In this document: positions 3,179 to 16,373 of the stretch, one piece after another
Layout of the letters: each line of letters begins with the position of its first letter
Position numbering within the stretch: position 1 is the first letter of the stretch
DNA from: Proteobacteria bacterium UBA1844
GTDB lineage: Bacteria; Pseudomonadota; Gammaproteobacteria; Steroidobacterales; Woeseiaceae
Assembly: GCA_002338615.1 (NCBI GenBank)
Contig: DDIS01000147.1
Span: forward strand, 1 to 18,354
DNA: 18,354 nt
Reading direction: 5' to 3'
The notes under the pieces: model-generated
Seen by the model: only the letters and a program-made list of their open reading frames with translations
Told to the model about the DNA's origin: nothing
Databases searched by the model: none
Made by a program: the position numbers and the translations under genes

Positions 3179-4525
3179 CTAGGCCGCTGAGACTGACTGT
3201 AACTTCGAGCCGTTGACAGTGACACTGACACGTCCACCTGTAAGTTCTTCGAAGGTCTCCCGCATTATCTTCGATGCGAGGTACTTTTTCGAGTAAGGAA
3301 CCAGTACACAGTCATGCTTGGGAAGGGCGACTACGCCCGCCTGCTTCAGCTTCAACAAAACCCTCACCAGAATCTGTGACTCGGTGAACATGAACCTGTA
3401 GCCAGCACCCGTGTACCAGAAGTCCTGAAGCCCAGGATGTGCCTTCTCGATGGCTTGGCAAACGTGCCGCACTTTCGTGCCGGGCGGGAAGTGACACTGC
3501 GTTTCCTTGGGCCAGCGTTTCAGTTGCCTCTTGGAGAACAGCATACTGGCGAGTAACTTCTTGATGCCCTTACGCAGTCTGTCAGGATTCCACTCGATCA
3601 CTTCTTCACCGGGTTTGGTGTCAATCACGTCAATGTCGTAGGCATCTGCAGTCAGATCGTGAGGTACACCTGCAGCAGCTCTCGCCAGTGCAACTTGCAT
3701 ACACTCGAAGTCAACTTCACCGATTGCCTCGCCGTTGATGGTGACAAGCTTGGCTTGCCGTGCTCTCAGTTGCTGCCAGAAGCCGCCGAACAGGCGACCG
3801 CCCTGCTTAAACGATGCGTTGTTGAAGTATCGCTGCAGCCGGGTGTCCGTCAAGTCAATCAGACGTGTGCCGGTGTACCCGATGTCGGCAGTACGGAGCT
3901 GCTCGTTGATCTCGCGTACTTCGCGACGGTATTTCTTACTGAGGTTGCTTTCCTTGTAGTCGATCCACTCCGCGCGCCCGTCGATAGCGTTTTTCGGGTC
4001 ATGCTTGCCAGTCTTTTGAATGACGATTTCTTGTTCGCCCTTCAGTTCTATGTCAGTGGTCTCGATGTCCCAGTGGTCGATTCGACCAATAAGGCGCTCA
4101 GTTGCACGCACTGCTGTGCGCTTACCTATTTGCCAGCCGCCTATCTCACAGACCTCCAGCCAATCCATTTCCGGCTTGGTCATTAGGTCTACAATGTATG
4201 GAAACTGATGGCTATCAGTGATTGCCTTGTATCTCGTTGCCTTGATGCTGGTGTCCAGCGAAACCGCGATACGTCCCTTCATGTTCTCTGAGGTCAGCGC
4301 ACGATGTATCAGGTCACAAACCAGTGCCTCGATACAGCCATCGAAAGTTACCCTGTCGTCAGCTTTACGTGCTCGCTTGCGGAGATTGAAGTACTTCTCG
4401 TAGTTCTCAAGTTGCGTGATAACGTCCCGAATCAGCGCGCGCAGCTCTGGTGACGCAGCTCGCCGCCACTTGTTCATAAGCCGGTCTCGGTCGTCGATGT
4501 GTCTGTTGTAGTTGTTGAAGTTCAT
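3179..4525 (-). CDS. 448-aa putative replication protein with polymerase A-like palm motifs
   Basis: The N-terminal 230 residues are helical, charged and unassigned. From about residue 242 (GGRLFGGFWQQL) the sequence resembles a compact family A polymerase palm. A motif A-like EVDFECMQVALARAAAGV (270-287) has Asp272; a motif B-like segment RKGIKKLLASMLFS (318-331) keeps the Arg-x3-Lys spacing (R318, K322); a motif C-like PKHDCVLVP (402-410) has His404-Asp405. Family A DNA polymerases and T7-type RNA polymerases use Asp in A, Arg/Lys in B and His-Asp in C. Here Phe-Ser replaces the usual Tyr-Gly after motif B, and thumb and exonuclease regions seem missing. I recall uncharacterised relatives beside integrases in Alphaproteobacteria. 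It is the last gene of the long leftward series, preceded by a structured leader that overlaps its ribosome binding site. Replication initiation or DNA synthesis for the element is inferred. Confidence 0.55.
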   Translation of the reverse strand: MNFNNYNRHIDDRDRLMNKWRRAASPELRALIRDVITQLENYEKYFNLRKRARKADDRVTFDGCIEALVCDLIHRALTSENMKGRIAVSLDTSIKATRYKAITDSHQFPYIVDLMTKPEMDWLEVCEIGGWQIGKRTAVRATERLIGRIDHWDIETTDIELKGEQEIVIQKTGKHDPKNAIDGRAEWIDYKESNLSKKYRREVREINEQLRTADIGYTGTRLIDLTDTRLQRYFNNASFKQGGRLFGGFWQQLRARQAKLVTINGEAIGEVDFECMQVALARAAAGVPHDLTADAYDIDVIDTKPGEEVIEWNPDRLRKGIKKLLASMLFSKRQLKRWPKETQCHFPPGTKVRHVCQAIEKAHPGLQDFWYTGAGYRFMFTESQILVRVLLKLKQAGVVALPKHDCVLVPYSKKYLASKIMRETFEELTGGRVSVTVNGSKLQSVSAA

Positions 4526-4535
4526 TTAAGTTTCT

Positions 4536-4620
4536 CTCTGTGTGATCTCTCCATGTAACCCAAGGTGACGAAGCAGGTAGGGGATCAATCCCACCTGCAT
4601 CGCGTCGGGTTCACACAGAG
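4536..4620 (-). ncRNA. Structured 5' leader of the polymerase-like gene (ATTGATC hairpin 1)
   Basis: Nested pairings in plus coordinates are 4536-4545 with 4611-4620 (perfect 10 bp), ACCC/GGGT at about 4558-4561 with 4607-4610, a bulged GACGA stem at 4567-4571, and an apical hairpin 4573-4578 with 4593-4598 extended by three G-C pairs. On the mRNA the loop reads ATTGATC. The outer stem's 3' arm runs into AGAGAG, the only Shine-Dalgarno candidate before the ATG at 4525, so folding would hide it. The same loop and nested design occur before the next gene upstream. A cis-regulatory RNA or a protein-bound translational operator is inferred. Confidence 0.6.
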
Positions 4621-4672
4621 AATGTGTATGGTTCGTTGATAAGCAGCGGCCTACTCGCCCGCTGGTGGCTTT

Positions 4673-5086
4673 TCAGGCGGCTGCTCGAAGTTCTGCCAGT
4701 CTCACCACAAGTTTTCGCTTCGAGTCCTCTGAAAGCTGCTTTTTGCGCCGAACCTTCAGCACTGGTAGGACGGCACGTACAGCGGCGATGCCAGGCAGGC
4801 TCACCCACGACTCCCCGGAACCCCGGTAAATCTTGTAGGTATCCTCTGTACTGGCCTTCCAGCTCTCAGATAGCACGTCCAGCATGCCTGTGACCTTGCG
4901 TTCTGACAGCGTCGCCGCCGCGGAGGTGGTATCAGTCAGCCACACGTCCCACGAGCCATCGACCATGGGTTCAATCTCGCCGTAACGGCCAACGATTTTG
5001 TAGTGGCCCGGCTCGTCGCATGTGGGCACTATTGCTGTCTTGCTGATCTGGCCATCGAAGGCGTCAAATAACTCTTTCTTGTTCAT
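4673..5086 (-). CDS. 137-aa hypothetical protein
   Basis: The ATG at 5086 follows AAGGAA seven bases upstream, within the leader structure. The product begins MNKKELFDAFDGQISKTAIV and has a beta-rich middle (HYKIVGRYGEIEPMVDGSWD), then a charged helical C-terminus with a basic KVRRKKQLSEDSKRKL stretch near 110-125 that could touch nucleic acid. No known domain is recognised. It lies between two genes of the leftward series and is separated from both by non-coding leaders of 147 bp and 264 bp, unlike the tightly packed genes further upstream. This implies it is translated under its own control. Confidence 0.7.
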   Translation of the reverse strand: MNKKELFDAFDGQISKTAIVPTCDEPGHYKIVGRYGEIEPMVDGSWDVWLTDTTSAAATLSERKVTGMLDVLSESWKASTEDTYKIYRGSGESWVSLPGIAAVRAVLPVLKVRRKKQLSEDSKRKLVVRLAELRAAA

Positions 5087-5093
5087 TTCATTT

Positions 5094-5180
5094 CCTTGCA
5101 GTTGTCGTTAAGTCACCCACAGCACAGCGGCACACATGTAGCGCGATCAATCGCTACAGAGGTGTGCCTACACTGCAAGG
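5094..5180 (-). ncRNA. Structured 5' leader (ATTGATC hairpin 2)
   Basis: Three perfect nested stems in plus coordinates are 5094-5102 with 5172-5180 (9 bp), 5129-5135 with 5162-5168 (7 bp) and 5138-5143 with 5152-5157 (6 bp). The 8-nt apical loop reads ATTGATCG on the mRNA. The 3' arm of the outer stem contains AAGG of the Shine-Dalgarno that serves the ATG at 5086, and its 5' arm starts CCTT, a direct anti-Shine-Dalgarno. The stems share no sequence with leader 1, yet architecture and loop are the same. The rest of the gap (5183-5350) holds no gene that I can support. Confidence 0.65.
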
Positions 5181-5350
5181 TGATAGGGTTCGAGCAGCCC
5201 ACCTACTCGCTCTACTTGCGCCAGCCTGCACTGACGACAAGTTGAGTTTTCGGCATCGGCTCAGGGATTCCTGAAGTACTCGACGGGGCACCTACTCACC
5301 TCACCATCGCTGGTAAGGTTTTCGGTCACCATGGCCGGAGTACCATGTTC

Positions 5351-5909: not shown

Positions 5910-6113
5910 TTAGATACCCGAGCGGGCACGCTTCTGTTGCATCAACTCGTTCATGAGCCGTTGTCTTGGGTCGGACTTGGTGTGACGTGCATCACCCATC
6001 ATCTGGATGCGGTGCACGACGGTTCCATCCTTGCCTTTGAGAGTTCCCTTCCGGTTGCTCTCTCGTGAGCGTAGGTGCCTTAGCTCCTTTGCCCAGAATC
6101 TATCTGCGCTCAT
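5910..6113 (-). CDS. 67-aa basic hypothetical protein
   Basis: The ATG at 6113 follows AAGGAG ten bases upstream and overlaps the end of the zinc-finger gene by 14 bases. The product begins MSADRFWAKELRHLRSRESN, is rich in Arg and Lys throughout and ends QQKRARSGI. Its small size and strong positive charge suggest nucleic-acid binding, but no fold is recognised. The overlap and ribosome binding site support translation as part of the leftward operon. Confidence 0.6.
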   Translation of the reverse strand: MSADRFWAKELRHLRSRESNRKGTLKGKDGTVVHRIQMMGDARHTKSDPRQRLMNELMQQKRARSGI

Positions 6114-6486
6114 ACTGTGGTGCTCCTTGTCTTATCTGTGTCCTTTGTCGCAGCCACCGAAGACGTGCCTCAGCGACCGATTCGTTGTCGATTGGGTATT
6201 CGAAGTTAACGTCCCGGTAACCTATCTTGGCGAACCACTGATACTCAGTATTTAGGTTCACGCGATCTTCGTGCCAAGGCTCCTGAGCGAGCGCGTATTC
6301 GAGATGGCTGATCTCTGCCAGACGTTCAGGCCGTCGATACCTGTCCTTATGCTTGCGGCAGCAATCTCGGCAGTACACGTCCTTGCGGTCGCGAGTGGTG
6401 GCCTTGTTGTTATAGCCCGAGAACTGCTTCATGACCTTGCAGTCCGGGCATCGCTTCTGACGCTCGACAGCGGCTACGCTGCCCAT
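6100..6486 (-). CDS. 128-aa zinc-finger protein
   Basis: The N-terminal finger is C13-x2-C16 ... C39-x2-C42 (CPDC and CRDC, with an extra Cys43), followed by a basic helix KHKDRYRRPERL. This is the 'CPxC...F...CxxC...YR' pattern common at the start of phage zinc-finger proteins, including endonuclease VII relatives. The C-terminal 75 residues contain WF and RLRWLRQRTQIRQ but no clear nuclease residues. Its start overlaps the preceding gene by 13 bases. The cysteine layout matches the protein at 641-985, although the rest differs. A DNA-binding accessory role is inferred. Confidence 0.65.
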   Translation of the reverse strand: MGSVAAVERQKRCPDCKVMKQFSGYNNKATTRDRKDVYCRDCCRKHKDRYRRPERLAEISHLEYALAQEPWHEDRVNLNTEYQWFAKIGYRDVNFEYPIDNESVAEARLRWLRQRTQIRQGAPQYERR

Positions 6487-6798: not shown

Positions 6799-7175
6799 GG
6801 GTGTCCACTGAATGCGTCTTAATTAATCGTCGGCGAACGTGTCGCTAACGTGCAGATTCCGAGTGGACACCTGAAGGACTGTTCCGGGCGGCTGATTCGG
6901 CGGCCGTAGACTGTCGTGGGTGTCTGCAGGGGATACCGGTTATTCCAAGGTGCTGATTCGACGGCTGTAGAATGTAGTGGGTGTCTGCTAGAGGTGCCGG
7001 TTATTCCGAGCCGTGGCGACCAAGGAATGTATAGCTGGGTGTCCTTGAATGTCCCCACAGTTATCCATGCGGCCTCCAGCAGTTGTTGAGAATAGTTCTC
7101 AGATCACTGTTCTGAGTGCCATCTGGAGATCAGATTCCGGGTCGTCGAACCTGCCTGATTGGTACGCGGGGTGTC
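6799..7175 (+). repeat. Iteron-like GGGTGTC direct repeats
   Basis: GGGTGTC lies at 6799-6805, 6918-6924, 6979-6985, 7037-7043 and 7169-7175, all in the same orientation. Spacings of 119, 61, 58 and 132 bp are near multiples of 60 bp. Three copies continue with C (GGGTGTCC) and two with TGC. An inverted copy, AGTGGACACC at 6862-6871, pairs perfectly with GGTGTCCACT at 6800-6809. On the minus strand each unit is preceded by an AT-rich GGAATAAC-type segment. They look like binding sites for one protein. Confidence 0.65.
6891..7012. repeat. Tandem duplication of a 61-bp unit
   Basis: Units 6891-6951 and 6952-7012 share GCTGATTCG at the start, GTGGGTGTCTGC in the middle and CCGGTTATTCC near the end, with roughly 80% identity and no length change. 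A degenerate partial third unit (ATAATTCCAAGCTGTTGATT, about 7188-7207) suggests older expansion of the array. Confidence 0.7.
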
Positions 7176-9136: not shown

Positions 9137-10048
9137 TTATGCTGCTTCAGCCCATTCCGCAGCAGCGGTAATGTCGAGCCGTTCAAGCAGATAGTCGACT
9201 GCCTTCTGCGACATACTGGCGGCACTCATTATTGCCTTTGGATCATCCTTGAGTACCCGTAGCCATGACTTGATGTAGCTGGCATGGTTCGGCAGTTCCA
9301 TGTCGATCCCCAGCGCAGCCTGTATGTAGCAGCTTCCGAGTTCGGCTATGAGTTCCTCGAACGCATACGCCTCGGTGCCGAAACGTCCCTTCAGGTCACG
9401 ATCACATCGGCTCTTGTGGCCGGTGGCATGTGTTGCCTCATGCAGCAGTGTTGCCCGATAGACAACTTCGGAGTTGAACGCATTAGTCGGTGGCATCCTG
9501 ATCAGGTCACAGCTCGGTGAATAACACGCTCTGTCGCCACCATGCTTGATCTCGATCTCAAGTGCAGCGGATACGGCTTCACCCAGTGCGTCACCTGTAG
9601 CAATCTCCTCGGGAAGCTCCAGCACCTTGTGGCCCTTCAACTTGGCAAGTGCATCGCCCCGGCATTGATCCAAGTTCATCACGCGGTAACTCTTGGCCCA
9701 CATGAAAGTTTTGGTCTCTGTTCCACCGTCATCGGTCTCAACTTCACGTTTGCTCTTGCTCCAGAACACAACCTCGCATGTCTTAGCACCCTTGAAGTCA
9801 AGCTCCAGTTCCTTTGCCTTGTTCGGCGTGACCCAGCCAGTGCTTGTAAATCCTTGCTCCTCAGCTTCCATCATGAGCAGCCATACGTTGATGCCTCGGT
9901 ATGCTCTCCCGGTAACCGCGTTATGCGGCATACCATACGCAGCGCTGTTACCCTCGCTCCAGCCCTTGCGCCACGGCAACGTGCCCGCCTCCAGCGCTTT
10001 GACGATACGGTCGGTAATCCTTTGGTACAGCTTGTTGGTTGCAGTCAT
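9137..10048 (-). CDS. ardC: ArdC-like antirestriction protein, 303 aa
   Basis: The ATG at 10048 has GGGAGG seven bases upstream. The N-terminal ArdC domain (about 5-125) shows LYQRITDRIVKALEAGTLPW, NAVTGRAYRGINVWLL and GFTSTGWVTPNKAKEL, typical of this single-stranded-DNA-binding domain. The C-terminal zincin-like domain carries HEATH (203-207), an HExxH metal site, and a downstream FEELIAELG that should provide the third ligand. ArdC proteins protect incoming plasmid or element DNA from host restriction, and the length is typical. The preceding tiny gene stops two bases before its ATG, so the two are co-translated. Presence of ardC points to entry of the element as naked or single-stranded DNA at some stage. 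Confidence 0.92.
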   Translation of the reverse strand: MTATNKLYQRITDRIVKALEAGTLPWRKGWSEGNSAAYGMPHNAVTGRAYRGINVWLLMMEAEEQGFTSTGWVTPNKAKELELDFKGAKTCEVVFWSKSKREVETDDGGTETKTFMWAKSYRVMNLDQCRGDALAKLKGHKVLELPEEIATGDALGEAVSAALEIEIKHGGDRACYSPSCDLIRMPPTNAFNSEVVYRATLLHEATHATGHKSRCDRDLKGRFGTEAYAFEELIAELGSCYIQAALGIDMELPNHASYIKSWLRVLKDDPKAIMSAASMSQKAVDYLLERLDITAAAEWAEAA

Positions 10049-10049
10049 C

Positions 10050-10211
10050 TCAGCCTCCCTGCACTGCCGCCATGCGGCGCGCATTCTCTGCCCTAAGGTC
10101 ACGGGCGTTTTGGTCTTGAGTCATCTGGATGCGCCAGTCCATCTCGGCGTAACGCTCCTCACGTTCGGCACAAATCTGCGCAGCTGCGCGGGCTTGGTAC
10201 TTGGTCATCAT
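10050..10211 (-). CDS. 53-aa charged helical protein, upstream of ardC
   Basis: Two adjacent ATGs (10211 and 10208) follow GGAGAGAC. The product begins MMTKYQARAAAQICAEREER and is a single amphipathic, strongly charged helix ending MAAVQGG. Its stop codon is separated from the ardC start by one base (TGA-G-ATG), and the ardC Shine-Dalgarno lies inside its last codons. This indicates coupled translation. No domain is recognised. Confidence 0.65.
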   Translation of the reverse strand: MMTKYQARAAAQICAEREERYAEMDWRIQMTQDQNARDLRAENARRMAAVQGG

Positions 10212-10281: not shown

Positions 10282-10491
10282 TCAGGCCGCGATTCTGAAC
10301 ATCTCGGCGTGCAGGTCTTCGAGTGCGGCGGCGTAGTCCTGTACGTTCAACTCACAGGGCGTACCTGGGAAGCGGTTTGCGGTATAGCTCATTGCGTCAC
10401 TTTCATCATCAGCATCGACCTCAAGCAGCATCTCAGCGTGGGTCAAGTGCCATGTGTGTGCAGAAATCTGAGTCAGTGTCATCATGGTCAT
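10282..10491 (-). CDS. 69-aa acidic hypothetical protein
   Basis: ATG 10491 is chosen because CCGGAG lies six bases upstream; two further ATGs follow within four codons. The product begins MTMMTLTQISAHTWHLTHAE and is acidic (VDADDESDAM), with a C-terminal helix DYAAALEDLHAEMFRIAA. The spread of His and acidic residues is notable, but no family is recognised. It is the most upstream gene of the long leftward series that I can support. It is preceded by the third ATTGATC hairpin. Confidence 0.6.
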   Translation of the reverse strand: MTMMTLTQISAHTWHLTHAEMLLEVDADDESDAMSYTANRFPGTPCELNVQDYAAALEDLHAEMFRIAA

Positions 10492-10524: not shown

Positions 10525-10567
10525 GGCTTGGTGGTGCCCACGGATCAATCATGGGCACTAACAAACC
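10525..10567 (-). ncRNA. Leader hairpin 3 with ATTGATC loop
   Basis: In plus coordinates 10525-10540 pairs with 10552-10567: a perfect 7-bp inner stem GTGCCCA/TGGGCAC, then a longer stem with two mismatches and one G-U. The 11-nt loop on the mRNA strand reads TGATTGATCCG. It lies 27 nt upstream of the Shine-Dalgarno of gene 10282-10491, so unlike leaders 1 and 2 it does not cover the ribosome binding site. An alternative partner exists: 10546-10559 matches the reverse complement of 10661-10674 with one mismatch, so two folds could compete. Confidence 0.55.
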
Positions 10568-16332: not shown

Positions 16333-16373
16333 CTTCGGAGGGCAGTACTCTATCCAGCTGAGCTACGGGCGCT
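16333..16373. repeat. Right attachment site (attR), orphan 5' half of tRNA-Arg
   Basis: This is identical to 211-251. On the minus strand it is the first 40 nt of the tRNA, preceded by one shared base, and ends at CCGAAG in the anticodon loop, after which the sequence diverges to ATCAGGGTC. It is the original 5' half left attached to its native upstream region, so the old tRNA promoter may still drive a truncated transcript into the element. Confidence 0.92.

Follow-up and report, generated by a model that had tools for sequence, protein, structure and literature searches.

Introduction

RNA leaders that hide the ribosome binding site are already known; what is new at the locus described here is a repeated apical loop, borne on unrelated stems, in front of several genes. 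The locus lies in an 18,354-nt stretch of DNA (the window; positions 1 to 18,354 of contig DDIS01000147.1, assembly GCA_002338615.1, Proteobacteria bacterium UBA1844), where two consecutive genes are preceded by nested leaders A and B and a third by the simpler hairpin C, while a homologue of the gene behind B carries leader D in another genome. In the rep leaders of IncI and IncB plasmids, which are controlled by antisense RNA, a U-turn loop is combined with a stem that buries the Shine-Dalgarno (SD) sequence, and in mobE of phage Aeh1 an RNA hairpin reportedly hides the ribosome binding site. The present leaders resemble them in preceding a replication gene and in joining a U-turn loop to an SD-burying stem; unlike them, they come with no antisense RNA or consistent pseudoknot partner that we could see, and their loop is common to three genes and recurs across genomes. 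The mobE case differs from the present one, in which the structure is nested and its apical loop is conserved and recurs at several genes.

The DNA polymerase of phage T4, gp43, belongs to family B. According to passages of a report that terms gp43 a model of alpha DNA polymerases, the T4 and RB69 polymerases are autogenous translational repressors that bind to a hairpin in the leader, which reaches the ribosome binding site; the two operators have the same hairpin top and loop and differ in hairpin length (PMC3014915). Compared with the gene 43 operator as described there, leader B (and D) is likewise a hairpin upstream of a polymerase start that reaches the ribosome binding site, and its loop is likewise kept between relatives (B versus D) while the stems differ. 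However, the polymerase here is of the polymerase-A superfamily and not of the gp43 type; the T4 hairpin lies about 40 nt upstream and has a UAAC loop, whereas the distance here is 64-74 nt and the loop a 7-8-nt (A/C)UUGAUC; an SD-burying outer stem is added, two further genes are included, and protein binding is putative. A limited literature search recognised no published counterpart of these leaders.

Results

Leaders A and B, like hairpin C and the genes behind all three, lie on the minus strand. Leader A (5180-5094) precedes a gene for a 137-aa protein (4673-5086) whose sole match in the protein search was itself. Folding and pairing place the 5' arm of its outer stem (CCTTGCAGT) at 5172-5180 and the 3' arm (ACTGCAAGG), which holds the SD sequence AAGG (5097-5094), at 5094-5102, all nine of nine pairs being Watson-Crick. 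Nested within is an inner rod (5129-5168) with a lower stem (5168-5162 with 5135-5129) and an apical stem (5158-5152 with 5143-5137) closed by the loop AUUGAUCG at 5151-5144. Leader B (4622-4534) precedes a 448-aa gene (3179-4525) and repeats this plan: the 5' arm (TTCTCTGTGTGA) lies at 4611-4622 and the 3' arm, with the SD sequence AGAGAG, at 4534-4545, and 4535-4545 pairs with 4611-4621 (11 of 11), covering most of AGAGAG (4539-4534). Its inner rod (4568-4603) has an apical stem at 4598-4590 with 4581-4573 and the loop AUUGAUCC at 4589-4582; a proximal segment (4546-4566) is an alternative partner of the 5' arm, which leaves the SD sequence free. The initial annotation had described perfect outer stems, an ATTGATC loop at the apex of both leaders and an SD region within each 3' arm, and on all three points, coordinates included, our analysis agrees with it.

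It had missed a third ATTGATC loop. Hairpin C (10525-10567) presents AUUGAUC at 10549-10543 on a 9-bp apical stem (10558-10550 with 10542-10534) above a 6-bp lower stem (10567-10562 with 10530-10525), and the gene behind it (10282-10485) encodes a 67-aa protein for which the search returned the same 67 residues on its own contig and no other match. The octamer GATTGATC occurs three times in the window, always on the minus strand (0.63 expected; three copies reached in 3 of 200 shuffles), the third copy, at 10543-10550, being the tip of hairpin C. A census of hairpins on the minus strand of the window (7-8-nt loops, at least 7 bp, 4 G-C pairs) gave 22 placements at 21 distinct places, of which only A, B and C carry ATTGATC(C/G); the next closest loop differs from this motif at five positions. 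Permuted control 6-mers fell in such loops at 51 of 16410 sites (1.47 Mb of loci, overlapping entries included, TTGATC excluded). In A, B and C, respectively, the loop starts 65, 64 and 64 nt ahead of a start codon that has an SD-like motif and opens an open reading frame (ORF) of 137, 448 and 67 aa.

The same loop recurs before a distant homologue of the 448-aa gene. The best-scoring homologue with DNA, from genome G098 and of the same order, is 37% identical to the 448-aa protein, and the polymerase is the sole strong protein match between the window and the 35.7 kb around it. Leader D, upstream of this gene, is a nested rod with the apical loop CUUGAUCC and stem sequences unrelated to those of A or B, and its upstream arm can pair with the region just before the GTG start (9 Watson-Crick pairs, or 12 if G-U is counted; scored with a loop of up to 110 nt allowed). 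Structure and loop are thus kept while stem sequence changes, as had been claimed for A and B and as now holds for C and the homologous D. The stems had also been called covarying, too early a conclusion when it rested on two leaders whose genes are unrelated. With D aligned, both sides differ in 6 of the 9 apical pairs and 92.6% of cells pair, values reached by 3-4 of 500 shuffles, and a shifted register gives at most two such pairs; the alignment has three sequences only, and D came to notice during a search for a structure of this kind.

A covariance model built from A, B and D (R1) found A and B in their own genome (E 5e-5 and 2.5e-4) and then nothing below E 0.36. A wider chromosomal regulon was considered and set aside on this result, R1 being significant for A and B only; C scores too low for recovery. 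Across 16 other genomes, R1 recovered D at 1.1e-4 with the next match at 0.05; 7 of the 16 contain at least one match with E of 1 or less, and the matches other than D are taken as chance.

The homologues at the 83 other loci are 27-40% identical in their best local alignments, which were obtained for 82 of the 83. Among these loci R1 made five matches with E no higher than 2, the strongest of which, at 0.047, has a different loop; 31 further locus entries returned D's own and three weak matches (0.17, 1.2 and 1.5), and the 4 loci of phage and plasmid homologues returned none. The initial annotation had named recurrence before homologous genes as support; the element recurs within the window (C) and at the G098 homologue, but not at the other 83 loci, among which the covariance-model search likewise gave nothing convincing. 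Over their full length, 2 of the 83 loci (L066 and L096) contain an NTTGATC loop of 7-8 nt on a stem of 7 bp or more, about the background rate, and a TTGAT-containing loop on at least 4 bp lies around the start in 6 of 83, none in leader form. In three phage homologue leaders the stems over the SD zone have 4-6 Watson-Crick pairs. Conservation across the whole polymerase family was accordingly rejected; because these loci lack it, the loop leader is restricted to a narrow clade. The hairpin in L096 (Stappia sediminis, 9325-9351, minus strand) is isolated, with arms GGGGAGGG and CCUUCCUC around AUUGAUC, on the opposite strand and downstream of a distant polymerase homologue; its 25 bases recur in L132 and L151, which presumably represent one species with it, and it is probably a chance occurrence.

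Both nested leaders of the window fold strongly. Pieces of 99 nt reach -45.2 kcal/mol (z -6.6) and -38.9 kcal/mol (z -3.9), with 0 of 200 shuffles as good in each case, and a 92-nt piece of leader A is matched by 1 of 200. SD burial was compared with 1332 ORF leaders as the number of consecutive pairs over the SD zone with a 50-100-nt loop; these belong to ORFs of at least 150 aa that were called mechanically on both strands, which makes the background a rough one. Leader A has 9 and leader B 11 consecutive Watson-Crick pairs, and 5 of the 1332 reach 9. When the distal segment was shuffled, 0 of 400 versions paired as well as the real one in A and in B. Freeing the SD sequence costs 3.2 kcal/mol in A (-38.2 versus -41.4) and 3.1 kcal/mol in B (-41.7 versus -44.8). 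With the segment 3' of the hairpin shuffled, the alternative pairing of the 5' arm was equalled in 0 of 400 cases in B and 2 of 400 in D. These shuffle results support a two-state switch in B and D and not in A, and it is plausible, on this modelling, that leaders B and D alternate between SD-buried and SD-free states. Among 82 folded leaders (79 of the 83 homologues plus A, B and D), the lowest z values belong to B (-5.3), L064 (-3.9) and D (-3.5), followed by L037 (-3.1), L055 (-2.5) and A (-2.4).

The 448-aa protein behind leader B belongs to the polymerase-A superfamily (PHROG 4756, of unknown function), and its polymerase fold is equally close to single-subunit RNA polymerases and DNA polymerases. 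Family A DNA polymerases have a glutamate steric gate five positions after the motif-A aspartate. In the alignment of the 448-aa protein, members read by eye have Q, V, G or F at this position, and the residue after HD is S, G, A or C, not E; together these residues could mean ribonucleotide use or primer synthesis. A short upstream ORF overlapping the start of this gene was considered and dropped, no equivalent being seen by eye in leader D. Within the motif, UGAUCC may be complementary to the 3' end of 16S rRNA.

About 16 kb of the window form an integrated element, which lies between two copies of a 40-bp piece of a tRNA-Arg(CCG) gene (211-250 and 16333-16372) and contains a tyrosine integrase gene. 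On the best reading, leaders A and B belong to this integrated mobile element and hairpin C is a simpler member of the set. Rfam covariance models applied to the window, L002 and L108 gave no matches other than tRNA at E up to 1, and the leaders match no family. Elsewhere in the window, the protein at 12639-13553 matches the candidate defence family PDC-S42 (PADLOC, E 1.2e-48), and 9137-10102 encodes an ArdC-type antirestriction protein (ArdcN plus MPTase-PolyVal). Both stretches with a polymerase gene encode endonuclease-VII-like proteins (window 6100-6486; L016 5323-5742 and 7366-7905), which are weakly similar (26-29% over 45-54 aa). Two 61-bp head-to-tail repeats, 79% identical, occupy 6882-7003, where there is no obvious gene, between a helix-turn-helix (HTH) gene and an 81-aa gene, and are possible iterons or an operator. 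Just outside the element, positions 62-169 form a hairpin with 32-nt arms (z -8.3 for 55-176). Because about 84 nt of it match another species of the same genus at 95%, it is perhaps a small repeat family. It carries GATCAAT and was considered as a host small RNA partner of the loop; this was rejected, since GATCAAT is partly paired within the hairpin and a large part of the hairpin matches the other species.

Discussion

A shared RNA-binding factor is suggested by the recurrence of one loop at a near-constant distance before three genes and by its reappearance ahead of a distant homologue. Judged from sequence and folding models, A, B and C are probably cis-acting translational leaders whose loop is read by one trans factor, although we hold this with well short of full confidence. 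In each of them a stem would hold out the AUUGAUC loop at 64-65 nt from the start codon, and the outer stem would hide the SD sequence in A and B and could do so in D, for which reason a closed mRNA is taken to be a main state. A single factor recognising the loop would then control all three genes jointly at the level of translation. For B and D there is a predicted alternative in which the 5' arm pairs with the segment just 3' of the hairpin and frees the SD sequence; which of the two states is adopted would depend on factor binding or on folding during transcription. We infer the RNA-level function, the factor and the direction of control. By analogy with the T4 operator, polymerase autoregulation stands first among the candidates for the factor, as a tentative proposal that we would not call likely; it is placed there because two diverged polymerase genes share the loop in their leaders, because the loop recurs before two more genes, and also because the polymerase is the sole strong protein match between the window and the surroundings of D. 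The polymerase-like protein behind leader B would repress itself and the two small proteins when not busy on DNA. More speculative still is the fuller version, in which the element's possibly primase-like polymerase would read the loop on three genes and flip the two-state leaders, so that the supply of replication proteins would track free polymerase.

Several results weigh against this reading. The matching hairpin was found in 0 of the 83 other homologue loci (from -350 to +60 nt around the estimated start; L025 and L076 have less than 150 nt upstream), which leaves D as the sole positive among all homologue loci examined. For the closest relatives of the 448-aa protein in the protein search (P0003-P0007, 63-75% identity), no DNA was found in the collections scanned or the genomes searched. 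Hairpin C scores at noise level under the A, B and D model (12.2 bits, E 0.86) and has no SD-burying stem, with 4 Watson-Crick pairs only. In leader D the loop lies 74 nt from the start and not 64, the distal pairing is moderately exceptional (7 of 400 shuffles as good), and the minimum-energy fold is the proximal, SD-freeing pairing of the 5' arm; in leader A this proximal pairing is unexceptional, being equalled by 87 of 400 shuffles. If G-U pairs are allowed, long SD-zone stems are less rare, 9 pairs being reached by 116 of the 1332 comparison leaders and 11 by 14, while leader B then has 12. Homologue leaders that lack the loop can fold well too (L064, z -3.9; L037, z -3.1), and for this reason strong structure alone is not what is special here; the loop is.

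Other explanations account for parts of the same evidence. An antisense or small RNA might instead dock on the loop by loop-loop kissing, as in plasmid replication control. Antisense target loops carry the YUNR U-turn motif, which fits the UUGA in all four loops (A, B, C and D), and the gene behind B and D is polymerase-like; however, cis-antisense systems tend to diversify their loops, whereas this one is kept across genomes, a crude scan saw no sigma-70-like promoter on the plus strand opposite the leaders, and no consistent pseudoknot partner was apparent by eye, GAUCA being present in B only. We consider such docking unlikely. Slightly less probable again is a ligand-free intrinsic switch, with the SD sequence first free and later buried (a translation window), or with run-through transcripts closed and those starting inside the leader open. 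The roughly 3 kcal/mol between SD-free and SD-paired folds in A and B would suit it, as would the alternative pairing equalled by so few shuffles in B (0 of 400) and D (2 of 400), but the kept loop sequence would go unexplained, and in A the alternative pairing is unexceptional (87 of 400).

That the hairpins act as DNA, serving the element's polymerase as priming sites or as single-strand or cruciform promoters in the manner of phage N4, seems to us improbable. A fixed loop on variable stems at a near-fixed distance to the genes, and a polymerase fold equally near the single-subunit RNA polymerases and the DNA polymerases, would be in keeping with it, and in N4 too, according to passages of PMC4496689, a single-subunit polymerase reads hairpins in which some stem positions are free. 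The N4 hairpins described there, however, have 3-nt loops and a GC-rich heptamer, unlike the 7-8-nt loops here, and SD-complementary outer stems would be needless for a DNA role. Antitermination sites of nut type, in which an N-like peptide would bind the loop hairpin behind a linear box, are very doubtful. A lambda-type nut site has a linear boxA before its hairpin. A box (GCGAGTAGG..GCTGCT..CGAACC) does lie upstream of leader A (5187-5210, minus strand) and leader B (4630-4658, minus strand), with 2 matches against 0.04 expected for a pattern chosen after seeing it, and the local alignment of the two regions scores 29 (95% of shuffles, 23; largest of 300, 31). Unlike in a nut system, this box precedes A and B only and not every hairpin, no box alignment being found before C or D and no boxA by eye, and SD burial would be left unexplained. 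Coincidence we rate as the least probable reading of all: the pattern is post hoc, its loop motif having been picked from A and B, but C and D played no part in that choice, and the census of 22 placements makes coincidence unlikely.

The sequence GAGTAGG occurs three times within 650 bp ahead of A and B (5291-5297, 5202-5208 and 4650-4656, minus strand). Two of these copies lie within the longer box, and the total of 4 in the window is reached by 14 of 200 shuffles; an element-specific promoter or operator is possible.

Translational leaders read through one loop would make this locus a compact case of how mobile elements may ration replication protein. If the polymerase is indeed the factor, its autogenous operator would have been invented independently of that of T4 gp43 and in a different polymerase superfamily, a possible instance of convergent evolution of polymerase autoregulation.
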